Assembly: GCA_018220935.1 (NCBI GenBank)
Contig: JAAOXU010000005.1
Span: forward strand, 1 to 54,028
Direction: 5' to 3'
Length of the DNA stretch: 54,028 bases
DNA from: Candidatus Altarchaeota archaeon
Lineage (GTDB): Archaea; SpSt-1190
A program made the position numbers and the translations under genes. How positions within the stretch are numbered: the first letter of the stretch is position 1; every line of letters begins with the position of its first letter. Shown one piece after another: positions 60-54,028 of the stretch. The notes below the pieces were generated by a model, which was not told the origin of the DNA, searched no databases, and was given only the letters and a program-made list of their open reading frames with translations.

Positions 60-1133
60 CTAACTTGCCTCCAAATCAGTAAATTTAACGTCTCCCATAG
101 CACTTATTTCTCTAAAGATATGTGTTTTATCATCTTCAACAGTTCCAACATTTGACCAGACACTATCAAGTGCTGGATATGGTTCAAAGTCACCTTGTAA
201 CACTATGGTTGGGATTTTTGTGATGCTGTATTTTTCAACCAAGGTCATGCCTTCTTCTGACCTAAACGCCAAAGTCTTTTCACTACTTAAAATTATTCCA
301 AAGTTAGGTAGTATTTGTTTATGAAGGGTGACATCATAACAGTCACTACATTCTTCATCAACTAACATAATGAGGTTAACTTGTCCTTTGATTTCACCTG
401 TAGTGGTATTTACATAAGGTCCTTGTGGATCAATTACAAAGTAATTATCTGTTGATGGTGCTTGAATGCTTTCCCATTGATCATAGAGTGAAATATCTTT
501 TGTAAACAAAATCGTAGGGACCCTCTCTATCTTATTTTCTTCAATTAGTTTAACTGCTTCACTTGAGGTTCTCTCAAGCTCCTTTGAAGTAATGCTTATG
601 CCTGTACTTGTTAGGCTCTGGATTAATGGATTTAGGTCCGCGCATATACTACAGTCTTTGTCTTTTAGTATAATGGCTCTAACTTGGCCAACTACGTTTG
701 ACGTGTCTGCATCAATATATGGTGGCTTAATCTCAGTATAAACTAAAGTACCGTCCGTCTTTTCAAATCCAGAGAATTCAAACTTATCTGTTTCTCCCCG
801 TAGTATGATGGTTGGTAAATTTTCAATCTTATGCGTTATTATTAGTTTTTGAGCTTCACTTGAGTCACTACTAACAAAGTTTTCAATGAGTATTTTCACA
901 TTATTTTCCTTGAAGTCGTTGTATGTACTTAAGATATCAAAACAACCTTCACAGTTCACTGTTATTATGGTTGCTTCTAACTCAGCAGGTCTACCTGCTT
1001 CACTTATTTCAAGTATCTTTTCATTTGCTAAAGCTGTTACACTCATAGTTGTTATTGAATTAAAAATTGCAACTACTGACAATACAATTAAACCACCTAA
1101 TATTAAATCTCTCATTTCTATTTCTTTTTTCAT
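60..1133 (-). CDS. Membrane-anchored/exported protein with three tandem thioredoxin-like units
   Basis: N-terminal hydrophobic segment; CEGC, CSIC and CSDC motifs, each followed about 55-60 aa later by a cis-Pro-type motif (LPTII, VPTIL, IPTIV). Confidence 0.75.
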   Translation of the reverse strand: MKKEIEMRDLILGGLIVLSVVAIFNSITTMSVTALANEKILEISEAGRPAELEATIITVNCEGCFDILSTYNDFKENNVKILIENFVSSDSSEAQKLIITHKIENLPTIILRGETDKFEFSGFEKTDGTLVYTEIKPPYIDADTSNVVGQVRAIILKDKDCSICADLNPLIQSLTSTGISITSKELERTSSEAVKLIEENKIERVPTILFTKDISLYDQWESIQAPSTDNYFVIDPQGPYVNTTTGEIKGQVNLIMLVDEECSDCYDVTLHKQILPNFGIILSSEKTLAFRSEEGMTLVEKYSITKIPTIVLQGDFEPYPALDSVWSNVGTVEDDKTHIFREISAMGDVKFTDLEAS

Positions 1134-1558
1134 TTCTTTTCACCTTTCCATATTTTGACTATAAGTAAATAAACCAAAATAACTGCGCCCGCTAACAAGG
1201 CAGTGTATAAAGCTTGATTGGTGGTTGAATTGACAAGTGTATTATAACCCATCATACCTCCCATCATGCCGTGATTTGTATTTTCACTAATGCCACAATA
1301 AATATTTTGACCCATTGCTACGTGCATTTCGTGAAGGCTTTCTGAATCTTCTCCACCCATCATCTTATCCATAACTTCGTGCTCCTCTCCTGGGTGCATT
1401 TGCTCCATATAATAATCCCCTAAACTTTCAAATTGTTCTTCACTTAATTGGTTGCAAGGAATTTCTGCATTTATTAATGCCTCAGCTTCAATAAACGTCT
1501 CATTGCTATGTGCGAATGAAGCGATTAATAAAAAAATAAATAAAAAGGCGGGCCTCAT
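1130..1558 (-). CDS. Exported Met/His-rich protein with C-terminal TM helix, possible metal binding
   Basis: Signal-like N-terminus, MDKMMGGEDSESLHEMHVAMG, NHGMMGGMMG, C-terminal TM. Confidence 0.6.
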   Translation of the reverse strand: MRPAFLFIFLLIASFAHSNETFIEAEALINAEIPCNQLSEEQFESLGDYYMEQMHPGEEHEVMDKMMGGEDSESLHEMHVAMGQNIYCGISENTNHGMMGGMMGYNTLVNSTTNQALYTALLAGAVILVYLLIVKIWKGEKK

Positions 1559-1559
1559 C

Positions 1560-1790
1560 TTAACATCCTCCCACCATGGTTTGTAGGCCTTGTATATTAT
1601 TTTGTAGGGTCTTAGTTACTTCTTCACCGCTACTTTCACTATTACTTCCGCCTGCAAACTTATTTGTGCTAATTTCGGCTGTCATACCTTCCATTGATGA
1701 AGATAGTAGCCTTAATTCAATTGCTTGCACTGTTGACACTACTAATAGTACGCCAACACTTATTGCCATTAACCACATTTTTTTATCCAT
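1560..1790 (-). CDS. Small exported protein with a single Cys at the extreme C-terminus (TMVGGC)
   Basis: 76-aa ORF, N-terminal hydrophobic helix, ends GLQTMVGGC; tightly packed in operon with GGAGG before next start. Confidence 0.6.
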   Translation of the reverse strand: MDKKMWLMAISVGVLLVVSTVQAIELRLLSSSMEGMTAEISTNKFAGGSNSESSGEEVTKTLQNNIQGLQTMVGGC

Positions 1791-1798
1791 TTTTTCAC

Positions 1799-2263
1799 CT
1801 ATATTCTCATAAATTCTTTTGTCTGTCCTTCACTTATTGAGTATATGACAAAGTCTCCACTTTTTGCACCTGGCATCCCTGGGGATCCAGAAGGCATACC
1901 GGGTAGAGCTATCCCCCCTATGTTTGGTTTCTCGTTTAATAGTTTAAACAAACCTTCCTTTGGGATGTGACCTTCAATAAAGTAATCACCTATCTTAGTG
2001 GTGTGACAACTATACATCCCTATAGGTATACCTAGAGATTGTTTTATTGAATTTAATTCAATGTCTTCAACTAATATAACTTCAACATCTGCACCTTTTG
2101 CCTTTAGATAGTCCGCATAATATGTACAGCATCCACAGCTTGGTGACTTATACACTTCCATTTTTATACCTTCAAACTCATTAGCACTTCCTGACGTTAG
2201 AAATGCACCTATTATTATTACCAAAGACAAACCTGTTATTATCCACATTTTCATTTTTAACAT
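1799..2263 (-). CDS. DUF411-family metal-binding protein
   Basis: MEVYKSPSCGCCTYYADYLKAKGADVEV... IPIGMYSCHTTKIGDYFIEGHIP matches DUF411 pattern. Confidence 0.85.
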   Translation of the reverse strand: MLKMKMWIITGLSLVIIIGAFLTSGSANEFEGIKMEVYKSPSCGCCTYYADYLKAKGADVEVILVEDIELNSIKQSLGIPIGMYSCHTTKIGDYFIEGHIPKEGLFKLLNEKPNIGGIALPGMPSGSPGMPGAKSGDFVIYSISEGQTKEFMRI

Positions 2264-3651
2264 CCTCCTACCATTGTGTTCAATCCTGCAGCACTAACTT
2301 TTGCAGGATCTTTTCCTGCGACATCAATACCAACTGCTACCATATTTCTTGGGAAAAAAGTTGTTTTCCAATTCATAACTTCTCTTAGTACCTGTGCATC
2401 ACTATAATCTGTATTTTCAATTAGTCCTAAGGTTACGGCTAATAGTGCTGGGTGATGTTGACAACCACATTTTGACCTTCCGTCTGCAGTTACTCCTTGA
2501 GGTCCAACACCACAACAATATTCACAACTTACCCCCCGGGGTGCCGCTGCTAAGTTAAGGTATCTTTCCCAACTTTCTGGATTATTTTTTACTTCTTCAT
2601 TTATTACATAATACCATTTTGCAAGATAACCTAGTGAATTTAGTGGGTCGTCAAAACTAACTCCACCTAAAATTTCACTGTATTCTGGTACCCCACTCGG
2701 CATCATTATTTGCATTACTTCTTCTTCTGTTTTTGCGCTTTGAAGTTCAGGAAATACTGATGCTACTGTTGCTGCAGTTGAAGATAAAGCAGATATGTCA
2801 ACATCTGCTAGAGTCCCTGCTAATTGGTTATTACTCATAAACAATATACTAGGTCCACCAAGTGCACTTGAAATACCCTGTATTTGTATTTGATTAAAAC
2901 CCATAACGGCTGCAACTAGGAAAATTCCTACTAGCATCAATGTATCAAAGCGTTCAAGTTTTGGATCTTTTTTAATCACATTAAACTTGTGCTTTTTCTT
3001 TTGTGGGCTAAGTTGCATAATTGAAAATCCCACCAACCCCAAAGATAAAAATTTTAACTCCAGTCCTTGAAACGGCAGTACTGCAAGTCCTGCAGATAAT
3101 CCAAGAGCTGAATAAAGAATTGCCCCACATGAAGGACACCCAACTGAGAATACCCATGCAAGTAACCCACCTGAACTTGAAACACTCATGTTCCTGTTTT
3201 TTATTGTTTTGTAAACATTCACTAATAATATGCCAATCATTGGGATGATTAGTGCACTAAGAACCATGCTTAAAGTTGTGTAAACAAACCCATTCATTTG
3301 TGTATATGAAAAAATACTGTAAGATGTTCTTGAGAGCATAAGGTAAAAATTAATTAACCAAAATATACCGATTAATATTAGGGTTTTTTCACCCCATAAC
3401 TTCGTGTGCTTTTTACTGAGGTATCCTGACATTAGACCCAGAGATACTGAAAATGCACCCACCACTAAAACACCTAAGGTTGCATACAACAAAGCTTCCT
3501 TTAAAAAGTAGTTAAATAAGGTGTATGAGCTTGTTGGTATAACTGAGGTTAAGACCATAAATCCCAGAAAAGACAGCGTTGTTACTTTCCCTGATAATTT
3601 CATCGCTTTTTTATCCGATACGAAGCCGTTAAATTCTTTTTTTAAATTCAT
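2257..3651 (-). CDS. Polytopic membrane protein with Cys-rich C-terminal domain
   Basis: Several TM segments, GCPSCGAILYSALG, then CEYCCGVGP...CGCQHHPALLAVTLGLIE, ends GLNTMVGGC. Confidence 0.7.
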   Translation of the reverse strand: MNLKKEFNGFVSDKKAMKLSGKVTTLSFLGFMVLTSVIPTSSYTLFNYFLKEALLYATLGVLVVGAFSVSLGLMSGYLSKKHTKLWGEKTLILIGIFWLINFYLMLSRTSYSIFSYTQMNGFVYTTLSMVLSALIIPMIGILLVNVYKTIKNRNMSVSSSGGLLAWVFSVGCPSCGAILYSALGLSAGLAVLPFQGLELKFLSLGLVGFSIMQLSPQKKKHKFNVIKKDPKLERFDTLMLVGIFLVAAVMGFNQIQIQGISSALGGPSILFMSNNQLAGTLADVDISALSSTAATVASVFPELQSAKTEEEVMQIMMPSGVPEYSEILGGVSFDDPLNSLGYLAKWYYVINEEVKNNPESWERYLNLAAAPRGVSCEYCCGVGPQGVTADGRSKCGCQHHPALLAVTLGLIENTDYSDAQVLREVMNWKTTFFPRNMVAVGIDVAGKDPAKVSAAGLNTMVGGC

Positions 3652-3660
3652 TATATCACC

Positions 3661-4137
3661 TTATTCTTTACAACAGTCCACTAACTTTTTTACTATGTTT
3701 GTGACTTTGTCCCATTTACCTTTTTTTATCTTTCCTTTATTCACACCTTCAATATTAAGTTTCCAAAATAATGAGTATAGATAAAATGCGTCGTTAAATT
3801 TATCTTGAGCTTCTTTTTTCTTGCCTTCTCCTTGATACTTAGTTCCAACCTCGATTAACCTCATCGAAGTGGCTAAAAGATGTTTTGAAATGCACCAAAC
3901 TTCTCCTTCTGGTTTCTTAACAATTTCTTTTAGTAATTTTTTTCTCATACTTCGCATTTCATTAAGTAATTCAAGATATTCTTCTTTGCCCGTCTTCATG
4001 GCTGAAAAATACATATGTTCTTCTAGTGAAATTAGATTCATTATTGCTATTGATAGGTCTTCACCCCTTGACAAATCAATTCCATCTAAACTCCCTACCT
4101 TTTTTACTAATTCTTTTGCATCCATCATATCGCCCAC
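3661..4137 (-). CDS. Conserved helical hypothetical protein
   Basis: 158-aa ORF, LSIAIMNLISLEEHMYFSAMKT; in same-strand cluster. Confidence 0.6.
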   Translation of the reverse strand: MGDMMDAKELVKKVGSLDGIDLSRGEDLSIAIMNLISLEEHMYFSAMKTGKEEYLELLNEMRSMRKKLLKEIVKKPEGEVWCISKHLLATSMRLIEVGTKYQGEGKKKEAQDKFNDAFYLYSLFWKLNIEGVNKGKIKKGKWDKVTNIVKKLVDCCKE

Positions 4138-5024
4138 GTAAATATTCTTTCTTCAACGCCATATACACCATAAATGGTGAGTTCAAGTCTGTCTGTATTT
4201 TCAAGTTTTGGAAATGTCAATATACCTGATCTATGGTGACCTCCACTAAGTGAACCTTCCCAACTGATTGGCTGATACGTGTTCCCTTCTGCGTCTTCTA
4301 AAATACTAACTTTAGTCATATCATAATCTAAACTACCTTGATGTGTGTTTAGTGCAACATCAAATTTGATTGGTTCATAAAAATTAAATTCAATTGGTGT
4401 GATTTCTATAGTCAAACTATTTTCACTATTTGTTTTTGTTCCTAAATTTGCAGTATTTTGTGAAACTACTGGGGTTGCAGTTGCACCAATAAATATTATG
4501 GGGAGTGCTAAAATTGCTAGTGCGAGTGTAATATTTTGAAGTGATTTAAAATCTTGTTTTATTAACCAAGTTGGACCCTTAATTGCCATATTTTCTTTAG
4601 CTACTTTTAGCATCATAAATATCCCAAATATATTTGAAAATAAACCGATTGCCAAAAAGAAAGTCTGATACTTCATTAAAAATAGTGATGCTGCCGACAC
4701 ACCAATAATTGGTAAGACGTCTGTAAGACGATGTGCACAGCATGCAACCATGGAGGCCATTGATACGCCACCTGATGTTGCCATTTCTACCTTGCCTTTA
4801 TTGTCCTTTATGTGGGTATTTATTTTAGTGTATAAGTATGCTTGTATACCAAATCCAAAAGATAATGCGATTATCCAATACCACATTGATGTGAATTGAC
4901 TAACTGCGTATTCAAAGGAATTTGAAAGCGTTAACGTTCCAAAATAAAACAAGAGTAATGCGATTCCAGCGCCCACACCTATTAACTTGGCTTTAGTTTC
5001 ACTCATCACTTTAGAATCCCCCAA
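4125..5024 (-). CDS. Membrane protein with CCAH motif (metal-transport-like) and extracytoplasmic beta domain
   Basis: TM segments, VACCAHRLTDVLPIIGVSAASLFL, C-terminal soluble region. Confidence 0.65.
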   Translation of the reverse strand: MGDSKVMSETKAKLIGVGAGIALLLFYFGTLTLSNSFEYAVSQFTSMWYWIIALSFGFGIQAYLYTKINTHIKDNKGKVEMATSGGVSMASMVACCAHRLTDVLPIIGVSAASLFLMKYQTFFLAIGLFSNIFGIFMMLKVAKENMAIKGPTWLIKQDFKSLQNITLALAILALPIIFIGATATPVVSQNTANLGTKTNSENSLTIEITPIEFNFYEPIKFDVALNTHQGSLDYDMTKVSILEDAEGNTYQPISWEGSLSGGHHRSGILTFPKLENTDRLELTIYGVYGVEERIFTWAI

Positions 5025-5515
5025 GTTATTATGCTTGAAACTAACAGGCTTAAAATGATAAATACGATTGTTTGATATGGGAAAAGTAGCCCCTTCTTTT
5101 GTTTAACTATAGTGCTTACTTTCATTGCACCAACTAAAAGACTCCCACCAACAAGAATTCCAAGCAGTAGTCTATCTATTCCAAAAAGTGAACCTGAGGG
5201 CATCATCATGTAGATTGCATGTTTACTACCGCCAATAAAACCCGCACCATATAGTGGAATTACAAGAGACAAAATAGTTAGTAATACTATTATTGCTTCT
5301 TGACCTTTGATATATTCCCTTTTTAGTGATTTATTAAACCACAGTGCAGTTGAAACCAAAAGGGCACCGAGCCAAAAACCAACAATGATGTCATCAACTC
5401 CATAAAATCGAGTAATTGCAACTCCTGCTCCTGCTGCTGCAGTACAAAGTGGGCAATGTGCCTTTATTGGAACTAACCCCATCATCAAAGTCGCAATGAT
5501 TTTTCCCCAAACCAC
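5006..5515 (-). CDS. Polytopic membrane protein with HCPLC motif
   Basis: KAHCPLCTAAAGAGVAITRFYGVDDIIVG; GTG start; multiple TM segments. Confidence 0.65.
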   Translation of the reverse strand: MVWGKIIATLMMGLVPIKAHCPLCTAAAGAGVAITRFYGVDDIIVGFWLGALLVSTALWFNKSLKREYIKGQEAIIVLLTILSLVIPLYGAGFIGGSKHAIYMMMPSGSLFGIDRLLLGILVGGSLLVGAMKVSTIVKQKKGLLFPYQTIVFIILSLLVSSIITWGILK

Positions 5516-5591: not shown

Positions 5592-6059
5592 TTAATCTTC
5601 TTTTAACACAATTACATTAGTCATGCCACGTCTACGTCTCTCAATTACACCTTGTCCTTCAAGACGATCAAGTGCACGAGTAACTTTAACTTTACTAAAT
5701 CCAGTTTCTTCAACAATTTCAGATTGAAATATTGCACCGTTTGATTTAATAACAGTTTCAAAAATAGTTCTTTCATCAGATTTCATGGTTTTTAGAATTT
5801 TTGAATAGTCTTTTTTTGGTGTTGATTTTTCACCGTAAATTAAAAAGTAAATTCCAAGAGTGAGTACAGCAACAATTATTGCAATACTCGTATGTGTTTG
5901 AAATTCAATTGTACTCCACATCGTACACGTTAATCCGTGATCACATGTTGCTGCTACAATTCCTGAAAGTGCTGTATTAAATGACCACGTAATAAAAGCA
6001 ATTAATAAAGATATTCCAATAAGCAGCATACCAAATTTTTTTCCATCCATGTTACTCAA
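5592..6059 (-). CDS. Membrane-anchored winged-helix transcriptional regulator
   Basis: Two N-terminal TM segments with CDHGLTC between them; C-terminal wHTH (IVEETGFSKVKVTRALDRLEGQGVIERRRRGMTNVI). Confidence 0.8.
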   Translation of the reverse strand: MSNMDGKKFGMLLIGISLLIAFITWSFNTALSGIVAATCDHGLTCTMWSTIEFQTHTSIAIIVAVLTLGIYFLIYGEKSTPKKDYSKILKTMKSDERTIFETVIKSNGAIFQSEIVEETGFSKVKVTRALDRLEGQGVIERRRRGMTNVIVLKED

Positions 6060-49781: not shown

Positions 49782-50111
49782 ATGAAATCAAAAGATGTTA
49801 ATCCTGATGAAGCCTACGATTATTTTTTAGGAACTTTAGCTAATAGGACTCGCCTGAAAATAATAAAAGAGCTTCTAAAAGGGGAAAAAAACGTCGGTCA
49901 ATTAACTGTCGCTATTGGAGTTGACCAGAGCACGATTTCAAATAATTTAAAGCGATTAAGAGACTGCGGGTTTGTTAACGCGAAGCCCAATGGAAAGCAA
50001 CGAATATACATTTTAAATAGAGAAACTATTGAACCTTTGATAAAACTTATTGATACTCACGTGAATAAATATTGTATTAATTGTGTTAGGGGGAGTTCTT
50101 TTGGAGAATAA
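49782..50111 (+). CDS. ArsR-family transcriptional regulator
   Basis: LANRTRLKIIKELLKGEKNVGQLTVAIGVDQSTISNNLKRLRDCGFV; C-terminal YCINC. Confidence 0.92.
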   Translation: MKSKDVNPDEAYDYFLGTLANRTRLKIIKELLKGEKNVGQLTVAIGVDQSTISNNLKRLRDCGFVNAKPNGKQRIYILNRETIEPLIKLIDTHVNKYCINCVRGSSFGE

Positions 50112-51513
50112 AAAATATGATTTAATTATTGTTGGTGGAGGGGCGGCTGCGTTTGCGGCTTCAAACAGAGCAAATGCCTTAGGAAAAAAAACCTTGATGA
50201 TTAATAATGGTGAATTTCTCCCCCTTGGCGGGACTTGTGTTAATGTGGGGTGCATCCCCTCAAAAATAATGATACACCAGGGGCGTTCATACTATTATGC
50301 GTTAAAGAATAAGTTTAGAGCAATAAAAATGAACGGAAAAATAGATTTAGTAGATGCCTTAAGGGAAACACGAAGTATGGTTGAAGAATTTAGGGCAAAA
50401 AATTACCTTAACGTAATCAAAAAACAAAAACACGTTGAATTTAAGGGTGGCTTTGCAAGCCTTCAAGACAAAAATAATGTCAGGGTTGGTGATGAAGTCT
50501 TCTTTGGAAAAAATATTTTAATTGCAACTGGGGCGTCAACATATATTCCGCCAATTAAGGGTGTTGAAGCCATAAACTATTTCACAAACGAGAACATATT
50601 CAAGTTGGATAAAATCCCTAAGTCAATGATAATTATTGGTGCTGGCCCATCTGGGATGGAATTTGCTTCAATGTTTCATCATTTTGGTGTTGAAGTGACT
50701 GTATTTCAAAGATCAAGTCAGATTCTAAGTAAATTTGATACACAAATTGCAAATGAATTAGAAAAACACTTGAAAGCTGAAGGCATTACAATTTACACAG
50801 GTTCAAAGCTTAAAAGTTTTGAAAAAACAAAAGATAAGACAATTGTAAATGCTGATGTTAGAGGAAGCCCTTTGAGCGTCACAGCAGATATTTTGCTATT
50901 TACCACTGGATTAGCCCCCCGAACAAAAGGTCTTGGTGCAGAAAAGGCAGGTGTTGGTTTGGATAAGAAGGGCTTTGTCAAGACTAATGAATACTTTCAG
51001 ACATCACAAAATAATATTTATGCTGTTGGGGATGTGATTGGCAAGATGCCCCTTGAAACTGTTGCAGCAAAACAAGGTAATTTAGCTACTCAAAATATGT
51101 TTGAGGATGCTAGAAAAACTATCAACTACTATGAAGTCCCACAAGCGGTTTTCACATCACCAGAAGTAGCGTCAGTGGGTATTACTGAAAAAGAGTACAA
51201 AGAAAAGTATGGGAACTGCCTTTGTAGCACTATATCGTTTGAACACGTTGAGAAGGCCTTAGCAATAAAGGATGCTAGGGGCATTATTAATATGGTAATT
51301 GACCCAAAAACCAAGCAAGTTTTAGGGGTTCATATTACAGGGCCAATGGCAGCAGATATCATAACAACTGCAACATATGCAGTAAAAAATAAGATGACAA
51401 TAAACAGCATTCGTGATACGGTTCACGTTTTTCCTACACTTAGTGAAGCAATAAAGAAGGTCGCTCAAAGCTTCGACCAAAATTTGGAGGAGATGGCGTG
51501 TTGCGTGGAATAA
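50101..51513 (+). CDS. merA: Mercuric reductase-like FAD/NAD(P) disulfide oxidoreductase
   Basis: GGTCVNVGCIPSKIMI; C-terminal vicinal Cys MACCVE; TTG start after GGGGGAG. Confidence 0.9.
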   Translation: MENKKYDLIIVGGGAAAFAASNRANALGKKTLMINNGEFLPLGGTCVNVGCIPSKIMIHQGRSYYYALKNKFRAIKMNGKIDLVDALRETRSMVEEFRAKNYLNVIKKQKHVEFKGGFASLQDKNNVRVGDEVFFGKNILIATGASTYIPPIKGVEAINYFTNENIFKLDKIPKSMIIIGAGPSGMEFASMFHHFGVEVTVFQRSSQILSKFDTQIANELEKHLKAEGITIYTGSKLKSFEKTKDKTIVNADVRGSPLSVTADILLFTTGLAPRTKGLGAEKAGVGLDKKGFVKTNEYFQTSQNNIYAVGDVIGKMPLETVAAKQGNLATQNMFEDARKTINYYEVPQAVFTSPEVASVGITEKEYKEKYGNCLCSTISFEHVEKALAIKDARGIINMVIDPKTKQVLGVHITGPMAADIITTATYAVKNKMTINSIRDTVHVFPTLSEAIKKVAQSFDQNLEEMACCVE

Positions 51514-51848
51514 ATAAAAAAGATAAAGAGATGGTGGCTGTAGGAGGATTAGCAGGTTTATTTGCCTCTCTTTGTTGCCTTGGACCCGTAGTGCTTGTAG
51601 CACTTGGTCTTGGCGGGGTGTCAACCGCATTAACAATCGGAAAATATTCTGAAATTTTTACACTTTTGGCCTTGTTGTTCTTTGGAATTGCAGTAGTCTA
51701 TTATCTTAAAGGAAAAGACAGTTGTTCTGCTAAAGGTGTTAAAGAAAATTGGAAAATAATCGTGTTGTCGTTTGTGGTATTCTCAATATTTTTAATAATA
51801 CTAAAATATTGGGCAGCACCATTGCTGGCGGAATTGGTGTATAGGTGA
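51498..51848 (+). CDS. MerT-like mercuric transport membrane protein
   Basis: GLAGLFASLCCLGPVVLVALGLGG. Confidence 0.8.
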   Translation: MLRGINKKDKEMVAVGGLAGLFASLCCLGPVVLVALGLGGVSTALTIGKYSEIFTLLALLFFGIAVVYYLKGKDSCSAKGVKENWKIIVLSFVVFSIFLIILKYWAAPLLAELVYR

Positions 51849-51854
51849 TAAAAA

Positions 51855-52196
51855 ATGAAAAAAATAATATTAGGCGTATTGGTTTTTGGGGTTGTGTTAT
51901 TTTTAACGAACTCTTTAGTTAGTGCGAATGACTCAAAGCAGGAAGTTCTCACAAAAACAGTGGGACAAGCCACAAATAGAGCGATTCTTCAGATTGATGA
52001 TATGACCTGCACATCTTGTGCTGCTGGAGTTGAGTGGCAATTACAACAAGTTGAGGGCGTAGTTAATGCAACAGTTGTGTACTCAGAAGGAAAGGGTTAT
52101 GTTGACTATGATGCGAGCATAGTGGATGCAGAAACTATAGCAAAAGCATCTGATGTTTACCCTGCAAGAGTTATTGAAAATAAAGGGCTCAATTAA
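51855..52196 (+). CDS. MerP-like exported HMA-domain protein
   Basis: Signal-like N-terminus; ILQIDDMTCTSCAAGVEWQLQQVEGV. Confidence 0.88.
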   Translation: MKKIILGVLVFGVVLFLTNSLVSANDSKQEVLTKTVGQATNRAILQIDDMTCTSCAAGVEWQLQQVEGVVNATVVYSEGKGYVDYDASIVDAETIAKASDVYPARVIENKGLN

Positions 52197-54028
52197 GATT
52201 TGAATGAGCCAATTCTTAACGCGTTTAGTATTACTAATAAACTTAAACCCATATCCCCGACTGCAACAGCCAGCCACAGCGGAACCATTCCTGGGATTGC
52301 TAAAAGTGTAAAAGAGCCCTTTATTAGAAGGGATGCTGTAATGTTTTGTTTCACGACTGCCATAGTCTTTTTGCTCAAATTAATAAGATAATTTAATTTC
52401 GATAAATCGTCGTCTACTAAGGCTATGTCTGCCGTCTCAATTGCAACATCCGAGCCAATGGCCCCCATGGCAATCCCAACATGTGCCTTTGCTAATGCGG
52501 GGGCATCATTTACCCCATCGCCAACCATCACTACGTGCCCATATTTTTTTAGTAAAGCATCGATTCCCTTAACTTTGTCTTCAGGGGACAGACTTGCATA
52601 ATATTCATCAACGATGAGTTCTTCTGCAATGGATTTTGCTACTCGCTCATTATCCCCTGTCAACATGACCGTCCTAATCCCTTGATTTTGTAGTTCTTTG
52701 ATTGTGTCGGCAGAAGATGTCCTGATCTTGTCCATTAGGGCGATTACACCAATTAAGTGATTTTTGTTTCCTATCATCACTGCCGTTTTCCCTTCGCTTT
52801 CCAGACTCTTAAGGAGGTCTGTTGGAATCTCTACTTTAGTTTCTTTGAATAAAGCCTCATTTCCAACATAAAATATTCGCCCTCTAATTTTTCCTTTCAG
52901 CCCCTTGCCTATAACGGACTTGAAACCAGAAACAGCTTTTAATTTGATGCCTTGTTGCTTTGCGCTTTCCACTATTACCTTTGCAAGCGGGTGCCTTGAC
53001 TTAGATTCCAATGAAGCCACCACTTCTAAGAGATCAGATTTGGTATATTCATTAAGTGTGACTATGTTTGTGATTTCCAATTGACCCTCTGTCAGTGTGC
53101 CTGTCTTATCAAAAACTACTACCCTTGCTTCTTTGATTTCTTCAATAAAATTACCTCCTTTTATTAGAACGCCATTCCTTGATGCCGAAGTGATGCCTGA
53201 AACCATTGAGACCGGGGTCGATATTGCTAGAGCACAGGGACACGAGACTACTAATAAGACCAATCCCCGATAAAACCAGTCAGAAAATGGTAAACCAAAT
53301 ATTAAAGGGGGTATTGTCATAACAGCAAGCGCCAGTAATATTACAACAGGTGTATAGTATTGAGAAAATTTATTAATGAAAAGCTCTGTTTTTGACTTTT
53401 GCTGTTGTGCGTCTTCTACCAGTTTTACAATCCTAGAAATAAGGGTTTCATCAGACTCTTTAGTTACTTTTATTTCAAGATAACCTTCTTCGTTAGTTGT
53501 TCCAGCAAAAACTCCATCTCCTTTAGTTTTAGTAACAGCAAGACTCTCTCCGGTTATTGGGGCCTGGTTCACTGATGAGATTCCATTGATTACAACCCCA
53601 TCAACAGGTATTCTGTCACCTGGTTTGATAATTACTATGTCGCCGATTTTAACATCTTGAATTGAAATTATCACTTCCTTTCCTTTCTTTTTGACAGTTG
53701 CAGTCTTTGGTGCAAGCTTCAACAATGACTCAATTGATTTTTTGGCTCGGTCTGATGCGTAATCTTCAAGAAATTCTGCAATAAAAAATAGGAAAATCAC
53801 TGCAGCCCCTTCTTCACCATGTCCTATCAAAAATGCGCCGACAGCAGCAATGCTTATTAGAACATTAATATTCAATTGTTTATTCAGGACAGACACAACG
53901 CCCTTTTTTATGATTTCCTGCCCTGAAAAAGCAACAACCACAAGGAATATTACCTGAGCAATTGTGTATTGCTTTGCAAAAAATTCAGCATAAAGCCCCA
54001 CTAACAGGAGAAGACCTGAAATAATAGC
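52193..54028 (-). CDS. P1B-type heavy-metal-translocating ATPase (Zn/Cd/Pb-like), N-terminus beyond the window
   Basis: CPCALAISTP, VFDKTGTLTEG, MVGDGVNDAPALAKAHVGIAMG; reading frame remains open to window edge. Confidence 0.93.
   Translation of the reverse strand, partial: AIISGLLLLVGLYAEFFAKQYTIAQVIFLVVVAFSGQEIIKKGVVSVLNKQLNINVLISIAAVGAFLIGHGEEGAAVIFLFFIAEFLEDYASDRAKKSIESLLKLAPKTATVKKKGKEVIISIQDVKIGDIVIIKPGDRIPVDGVVINGISSVNQAPITGESLAVTKTKGDGVFAGTTNEEGYLEIKVTKESDETLISRIVKLVEDAQQQKSKTELFINKFSQYYTPVVILLALAVMTIPPLIFGLPFSDWFYRGLVLLVVSCPCALAISTPVSMVSGITSASRNGVLIKGGNFIEEIKEARVVVFDKTGTLTEGQLEITNIVTLNEYTKSDLLEVVASLESKSRHPLAKVIVESAKQQGIKLKAVSGFKSVIGKGLKGKIRGRIFYVGNEALFKETKVEIPTDLLKSLESEGKTAVMIGNKNHLIGVIALMDKIRTSSADTIKELQNQGIRTVMLTGDNERVAKSIAEELIVDEYYASLSPEDKVKGIDALLKKYGHVVMVGDGVNDAPALAKAHVGIAMGAIGSDVAIETADIALVDDDLSKLNYLINLSKKTMAVVKQNITASLLIKGSFTLLAIPGMVPLWLAVAVGDMGLSLLVILNALRIGSFKS

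Follow-up and report, generated by a model that had tools for sequence, protein, structure and literature searches.

A shared C-terminal pentapeptide as a possible exchangeable metal or thiol ligand in an extracytoplasmic tethered-thiol system of DPANN archaea

Why do two neighbouring membrane proteins of an archaeon end in the same few residues? The window (a 54,028-nucleotide stretch of contig JAAOXU010000005.1 from a Candidatus Altarchaeota archaeon) encodes on its minus strand a 76-aa protein (positions 1560..1790) with the C-terminus GLQTMVGGC and a 464-aa protein (2257..3651) with the C-terminus GLNTMVGGC. This likeness and the presence of only one Cys in the 76-aa protein had been pointed out in the first-pass annotation, and both observations, with their coordinates, were confirmed from the sequence. 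The 76-aa protein is a tethered arm, composed of an N-terminal membrane segment, a flexible linker and the terminal MVGGC (encoded at 1563-1577, minus strand), which contains its sole Cys. The 464-aa protein has an N-terminal membrane region with a GCPSCG motif (3124-3141); its last membrane segment is followed by a domain, here called the CEYCC domain, and by the MVGGC tail (2260-2274). Domain and tail together span 2260..2934 (minus strand) and are predicted to be all-alpha; CEYCCG is encoded at 2509-2526 and CGCQH at 2455-2469, and the Cys residues of the whole protein are at 172, 175, 376, 379, 380, 395, 397 and 464. Neither protein has a significant match in Pfam or NCBIfam.

The shared ending could be a coincidence, or its GG could be due solely to the ribosome-binding site of the following gene. 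Across 394 archaeal genomes, DNA encoding MVGGC followed by a stop was found at 45 sites, compared with 8 for a reversed control, and in genomes with at least two such sites these are always less than 1 kb apart. The paired sites are the ends of one CEYCC protein and one or two small membrane proteins. Of the single sites, some lie outside gene ends and match by chance (L028, L035-L038), and others are one member of such a pair. The CEYCC domain is encoded in 21 of the 22 genomes with an ORF-terminal MVGGC and in 30 of the 394 overall (Fisher p about 8e-27); the enrichment of C-terminal MVGGC in homologues, on which the first-pass annotation had made its reading depend, is thus strong and tied to this domain. 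At the codon level, GGAGGATGTTAA is identical in the two window genes and the upstream codons differ (GGATTGAACACAATGGTA vs GGCCTACAAACCATGGTG), implying that the identity of the tails is mostly at the protein level. GGAGG is over-used in the tails of CEYCC genes (47 of 71, vs 36% GGA among Gly codons), and 42 of these 47 have an ATG close by, as a ribosome-binding explanation would have it. However, GGAGG occurs in 26 of 82 small-gene tails, which is no over-use, and the tail genes use the full set of four Gly codons and two Cys codons as well as each of the three stops. Because the bias is confined to CEYCC genes and every synonymous codon is used, the ribosome-binding site shapes the choice of codons and not that of amino acids; it also leaves V, C and M/Q unexplained. 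The probability that coincidence or this constraint accounts for the tail is close to nil, and it is near certain that the tail is a functional, protein-level part of one module. What chance looks like is illustrated by L003:1300-1512 (G000:C26), in the same genome, where a pilus-like operon encodes a 71-aa membrane protein ending in TPVGGC. This ending was considered as a sign of a wider signal and rejected: it is absent from the relatives in G001 and G004 and is probably accidental. A further MVGGC-stop site, in a 3.6-Mb archaeal genome, belongs to an orphan 56-aa membrane protein ending in ALPSMVGGC (L025, G349:C204:2111-2128); no CEYCC gene was found in the 3 kb of sequence examined around it.

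A scan of one genome per species identified 215 relatives of the CEYCC protein, and the best 80 loci of these were analysed. Essentially all 80 are from DPANN archaea, with records from Micrarchaeota, Aenigmatarchaeota, Woesearchaeota, Pacearchaeota, Nanoarchaeota, Diapherotrites and further archaea; one record labelled Thaumarchaeota and one labelled Bacteroidetes may be misassigned contigs. A search for viral or plasmid carriage found no relative. Both a tailed CEYCC protein and a tailed small protein are encoded in 67 of the 80 loci, giving 76 pairs. The CEYCC protein has no tail in nine loci, in eight of which the small protein keeps it, and in three of the other four loci the contig ends shortly after the CEYCC gene. 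With few exceptions, no residue follows the motif; one of these is in the fourth locus, L070, where the small protein continues beyond MVGGC. The conserved core in homologues is [M/Q]VG[G/S]C, preceded by a variable linker rich in S/G/A/P. Across the 76 pairs of the 80-locus set, V, G, G and C are invariant and the preceding residues vary, so that the conserved tail proposed in the first-pass annotation stands in this shorter form and the GLxTMV part, which is replaced by variable linkers in homologues, does not. Variants in genomes with a CEYCC domain are QVGGC (G008, G212), MVGAC (L142), MVGRC (L147) and MVGSC (L150). Two proteins ending in AGSCSA (L062:5769-6317) and EASGC (L078:11487-12485) are either divergent relatives of the CEYCC protein or look-alikes.

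Past the membrane segment, each of about 92 homologous small proteins contains a single Cys, at the terminus; the listing holds 93, and the short L008 frame, a non-homologue that overlaps a real gene, was left out. In the minimal members (L061, L072, L107, L130) the arm is about 25-35 residues long. The small proteins of L064, L074, L077, L082, L089, L090 and L119 have a CC/His-rich stretch before the membrane segment, which is presumed to be cytosolic. The two proteins are both built as anchor, linker and tail, and some of them also have an intervening element in common; one was thus probably derived from the other, either the small protein by loss of the domain or the CEYCC protein by its gain. 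Such an ancestry might be the whole explanation, the small protein being a paralogue that lost the domain and kept the tail without any shared function. In line with this, 76 of 93 small proteins and 51 of 90 CEYCC proteins share a juxtamembrane QAxQ[I/L]-like motif, and an MxYExHGxxPAR element lies between the membrane segment and the tail both in a few CEYCC proteins (L079, L085) and in many small ones. On the other hand, the linkers have diverged beyond recognition whereas VGGC is invariant, and the tails change in concert, which makes descent alone a very improbable account; it may explain the origin of the tail, not its retention. Other small proteins have MMARMHPDQ between membrane segment and tail, which is Met/His-rich like MxYExHGxxPAR.

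The concerted change is seen at position -5, where Met or Gln agrees between the two proteins in 75 of the 76 pairs (shuffled pairs agree in 67.5 on average, and none of 5000 shuffles reaches 75); part of this agreement could be due to descent of the two proteins from one ancestor. On a tree of the CEYCC domain built without the tail, the tail changes its Met/Gln state about 5 times. The small protein follows in nearly all well-supported independent pairs (mean 2.9 of 3), which are too few for significance (sign test p 0.25). In G278 both tails are derived, the CEYCC protein ending in GMAGACG and its small partner in GMAGSCG. Domain residues that track the Met/Gln switch are a few weak candidates, confounded by phylogeny.

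The Cys and His residues of CxxCCG...CxCxH are invariant in the CEYCC domain, rare exceptions aside. None of 78 CEYCC members matched a Pfam family, two relatives had no significant Pfam or NCBIfam match, and a sequence search of the PDB gave no meaningful match to the domain. AlphaFold models of two CEYCC proteins are all-alpha and confident (pLDDT 91.5 for the window protein and 92.0), and neither had a significant Foldseek match in the PDB (best E 1.1 and 2.8). A literature search on the motif returned unrelated matches and, among the papers listed, nothing on a CEYCC/MVGGC system. The motif, the domain and the two core protein families are undescribed in the libraries and literature searched. 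The Cys-rich motif of the domain recalls PCYCGC proteins, presumably PF13798, in which a Cys-rich motif is likewise followed by a His and one of which is encoded near the pair at L013. However, profile comparison revealed no relationship (hhalign probability 1.3%), and homology of the two was rejected.

In the model of the window protein, the tail block has a pLDDT of 86. In a protein with a long linker (L055), the linker block drops to 57, whereas the tail block (GGLPNMVG) is back at 88; the last two tail residues are less confident (74). Packing of the tail on the CEYCC domain beyond a disordered linker, as the models predict, would give such a profile, although a rise in confidence can also come simply from conservation in the alignment. 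Docking in cis would be dispensable at the nine loci whose CEYCC proteins have no tail. A receptor common to both proteins best explains why the tail is restricted to two proteins of one operon, lies exactly at the terminus, varies jointly and is predicted to dock. When a receptor was sought among the neighbouring genes, no family was found in all 80 loci. Partly because there is no universal partner gene, the CEYCC domain is the best candidate for the shared receptor.

Sorting and lipidation, two of the four roles that the first-pass annotation had offered for the tail, fit these observations less well. A short, near-invariant motif placed exactly at the C-terminus of two different proteins could be a signal by which a dedicated, sortase-like enzyme anchors or conjugates both at the Gly or Cys. 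Yet both proteins are already anchored in the membrane, and nothing follows the motif, whereas the sortase type needs a hydrophobic segment and a charged end. No sortase-like or processing enzyme recurs alongside in the families examined. A general sorting signal is further made unlikely by the number of carriers, two or three per genome and almost confined to one operon, and we consider this role improbable. The lipobox pattern resembles [V]-G-[G/S/A]-C, and the likeness of VGGC to it could mean that the terminal Cys carries a lipid. In prokaryotic lipoproteins, however, the Cys directly follows a hydrophobic signal segment; here it follows a polar S/G/P-rich linker, and the membrane segment, at the opposite end of the protein, already provides an anchor. 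Since no hydrophobic segment precedes the Cys, lipidation is disfavoured and has a very small probability. By genomic context and predicted docking, a thiol relay or a metal handover is the best of the four readings.

The context consists largely of metal- and thiol-related genes, and the chemistry that it suggests would involve copper, another thiophilic metal or thiols. In the window, all on the minus strand, the gene for an exported DUF411 (CopG-like) protein with SPSCGCC (1799..2263) is situated between the two tail genes; the product has both the PF04214 domain (Pfam, E 5.6e-22) and the CxCC motif. We take CopG to be a DUF411 protein. In bacteria, the CxCC of CopG binds a Cu4 cluster (PMC7558416). 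The tail proteins, unlike CopG, are not themselves DUF411 proteins and belong to no known family. Downstream are an exported protein whose sequence is Met/His-rich (MEQMHPGEEHEVMDKMMGG...MMGGMMG; 1130..1558), resembling Met-rich SHOCT proteins of other loci, and a 357-aa exported protein with repeated thioredoxin-like domains (60..1133; Pfam thioredoxin match), whose family occurs in 16 of the 80 loci. Upstream are a soluble protein of the 'DEDL' family (DLSrDEDLSIAlMNL...CISKHLL; 3661..4137; in 29 of 80 loci, on the same strand every time), a membrane protein of the 'ACCAH' family (MVACCAHRLTDVLP; 4125..5024; 31 of 80), a membrane protein of the 'HCPLC' family (5006..5515), which at other loci stands in place of a CcdA-type protein, and a membrane-bound winged-helix regulator (5592..6059; 57 of 80). 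The regulator was assigned from its sequence and weak HTH matches, and a Cys/His/Met-rich loop (CDHGLTCTMWSTIEFQTH) joins its two membrane segments. A common gene order elsewhere is regulator, CEYCC, small tail protein, DUF411, HCPLC or CcdA, DEDL and ACCAH, with P1B ATPases and cupredoxins nearby.

The association with DUF411 genes raised in the first-pass annotation holds across the family, as such a gene is present in 38 of the 80 loci and in 26 of the 43 longest. P1B ATPases are encoded in 32 and cupredoxins in 25 of the 80; at least one of these three markers accompanies 34 of the 43 long loci, and the other nine have no copper marker nearby. CcdA-type proteins, some of which are fused to a DUF411-like thioredoxin domain, occur in 17 of the 80 loci and HCPLC in 43, and both together in only one (Fisher p 1e-5), suggesting that they do the same job, although shared ancestry of the loci weakens the test.

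These observations can be combined in a model in which MVGGC is an exactly C-terminal docking or ligand peptide of a two-protein module located outside the cytoplasm, where we infer the tail to lie. One protein would contribute the new all-alpha, Cys/His-rich CEYCC domain and its own tail, and the other would add hardly more than a flexible linker that joins the same tail to a membrane anchor. The CEYCC domain would bind the peptide both in cis (its own end) and in trans (the tethered arm), so that the terminal Cys, together with the Met/Gln at -5, would come to lie at the CxxCC...CxCxH site. This would allow the domain, the arm and the DUF411 and CcdA (or HCPLC) partners to exchange reducing equivalents or a thiophilic metal, for which Cu(I) is the likeliest candidate. 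Binding in trans, copper as the metal and the relay function are inferred, the chemistry from the gene neighbours. For an extracytoplasmic copper- or thiol-handling module whose CEYCC domain binds both its own tail and that of the arm, the case for and the case against seem to us about balanced; that the pentapeptide, in cis and in trans, is the exchangeable metal or thiol ligand of a DPANN tethered-thiol system is put forward more tentatively.

The same tail might also work in the absence of metal, the terminal Cys of both proteins relaying electrons from CcdA or HCPLC through the DUF411 and thioredoxin-like partners to the CEYCC domain or to clients. A lone Cys on a flexible arm would suit such a relay, as would the CcdA-type or HCPLC protein in 59 of the 80 loci, the CcdA-DUF411-like fusions and the thioredoxin-like neighbours, including the 357-aa protein of the window. 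However, a tail with a single Cys cannot cycle alone as a dithiol, it is not obvious what Gln/Met at -5 would do in thiol chemistry, and P1B ATPases, cupredoxins and Met/His-rich neighbours indicate a metal. A purely redox tail is a possible but rather unlikely reading.

The module is conserved across several DPANN phyla; both of its core proteins are without a database family and its domain is without a known fold. A five-residue tail with one Cys provides a sharp, testable handle on it. It also offers a functional hypothesis for many 'hypothetical' small proteins, which can be found by the tail pattern alone. If the docking model is true, metal or electrons would be moved outside the cell in a new manner, by a peptide arm instead of a soluble carrier. 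Extracytoplasmic copper/thiol handling, to which the surroundings belong, is a known kind of system; the tethered-tail mechanism, if confirmed, would be new in kind.

In bacterial Scs systems, a DsbD/CcdA-like membrane protein and an extracytoplasmic thioredoxin-like protein act in copper tolerance. To our knowledge, these systems have no CEYCC domain or tethered MVGGC arm, which sets them apart. ScsC binds Cu(I) tightly (PMC8900818). The eukaryotic copper importer Ctr1 has a flexible C-terminal HCH tail with a Cu(I)-binding Cys, which is thought to pass Cu(I) to chaperones (PMC6437178). The MVGGC tail resembles it in being flexible, C-terminal and Cys-containing. However, the Ctr1 tail is cytosolic and belongs to the channel itself, whereas the MVGGC tail is probably extracytoplasmic and common to two proteins, and its putative partner is a new domain. 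A C-terminal Cys pair also hands a thiophilic metal to the active site in MerA. In this case there are two Cys residues on the enzyme, unlike a pentapeptide common to two membrane-anchored proteins. The window itself encodes a MerA, which scores above the curated cut-off and ends in MACCVE. It belongs to a mercury/heavy-metal cluster at 49782-54001, about 46 kb from the tail genes, together with an ArsR-type regulator, MerT-like and MerP-like proteins and a heavy-metal P-type ATPase. Because the window also holds these genes, metals other than copper are possible.
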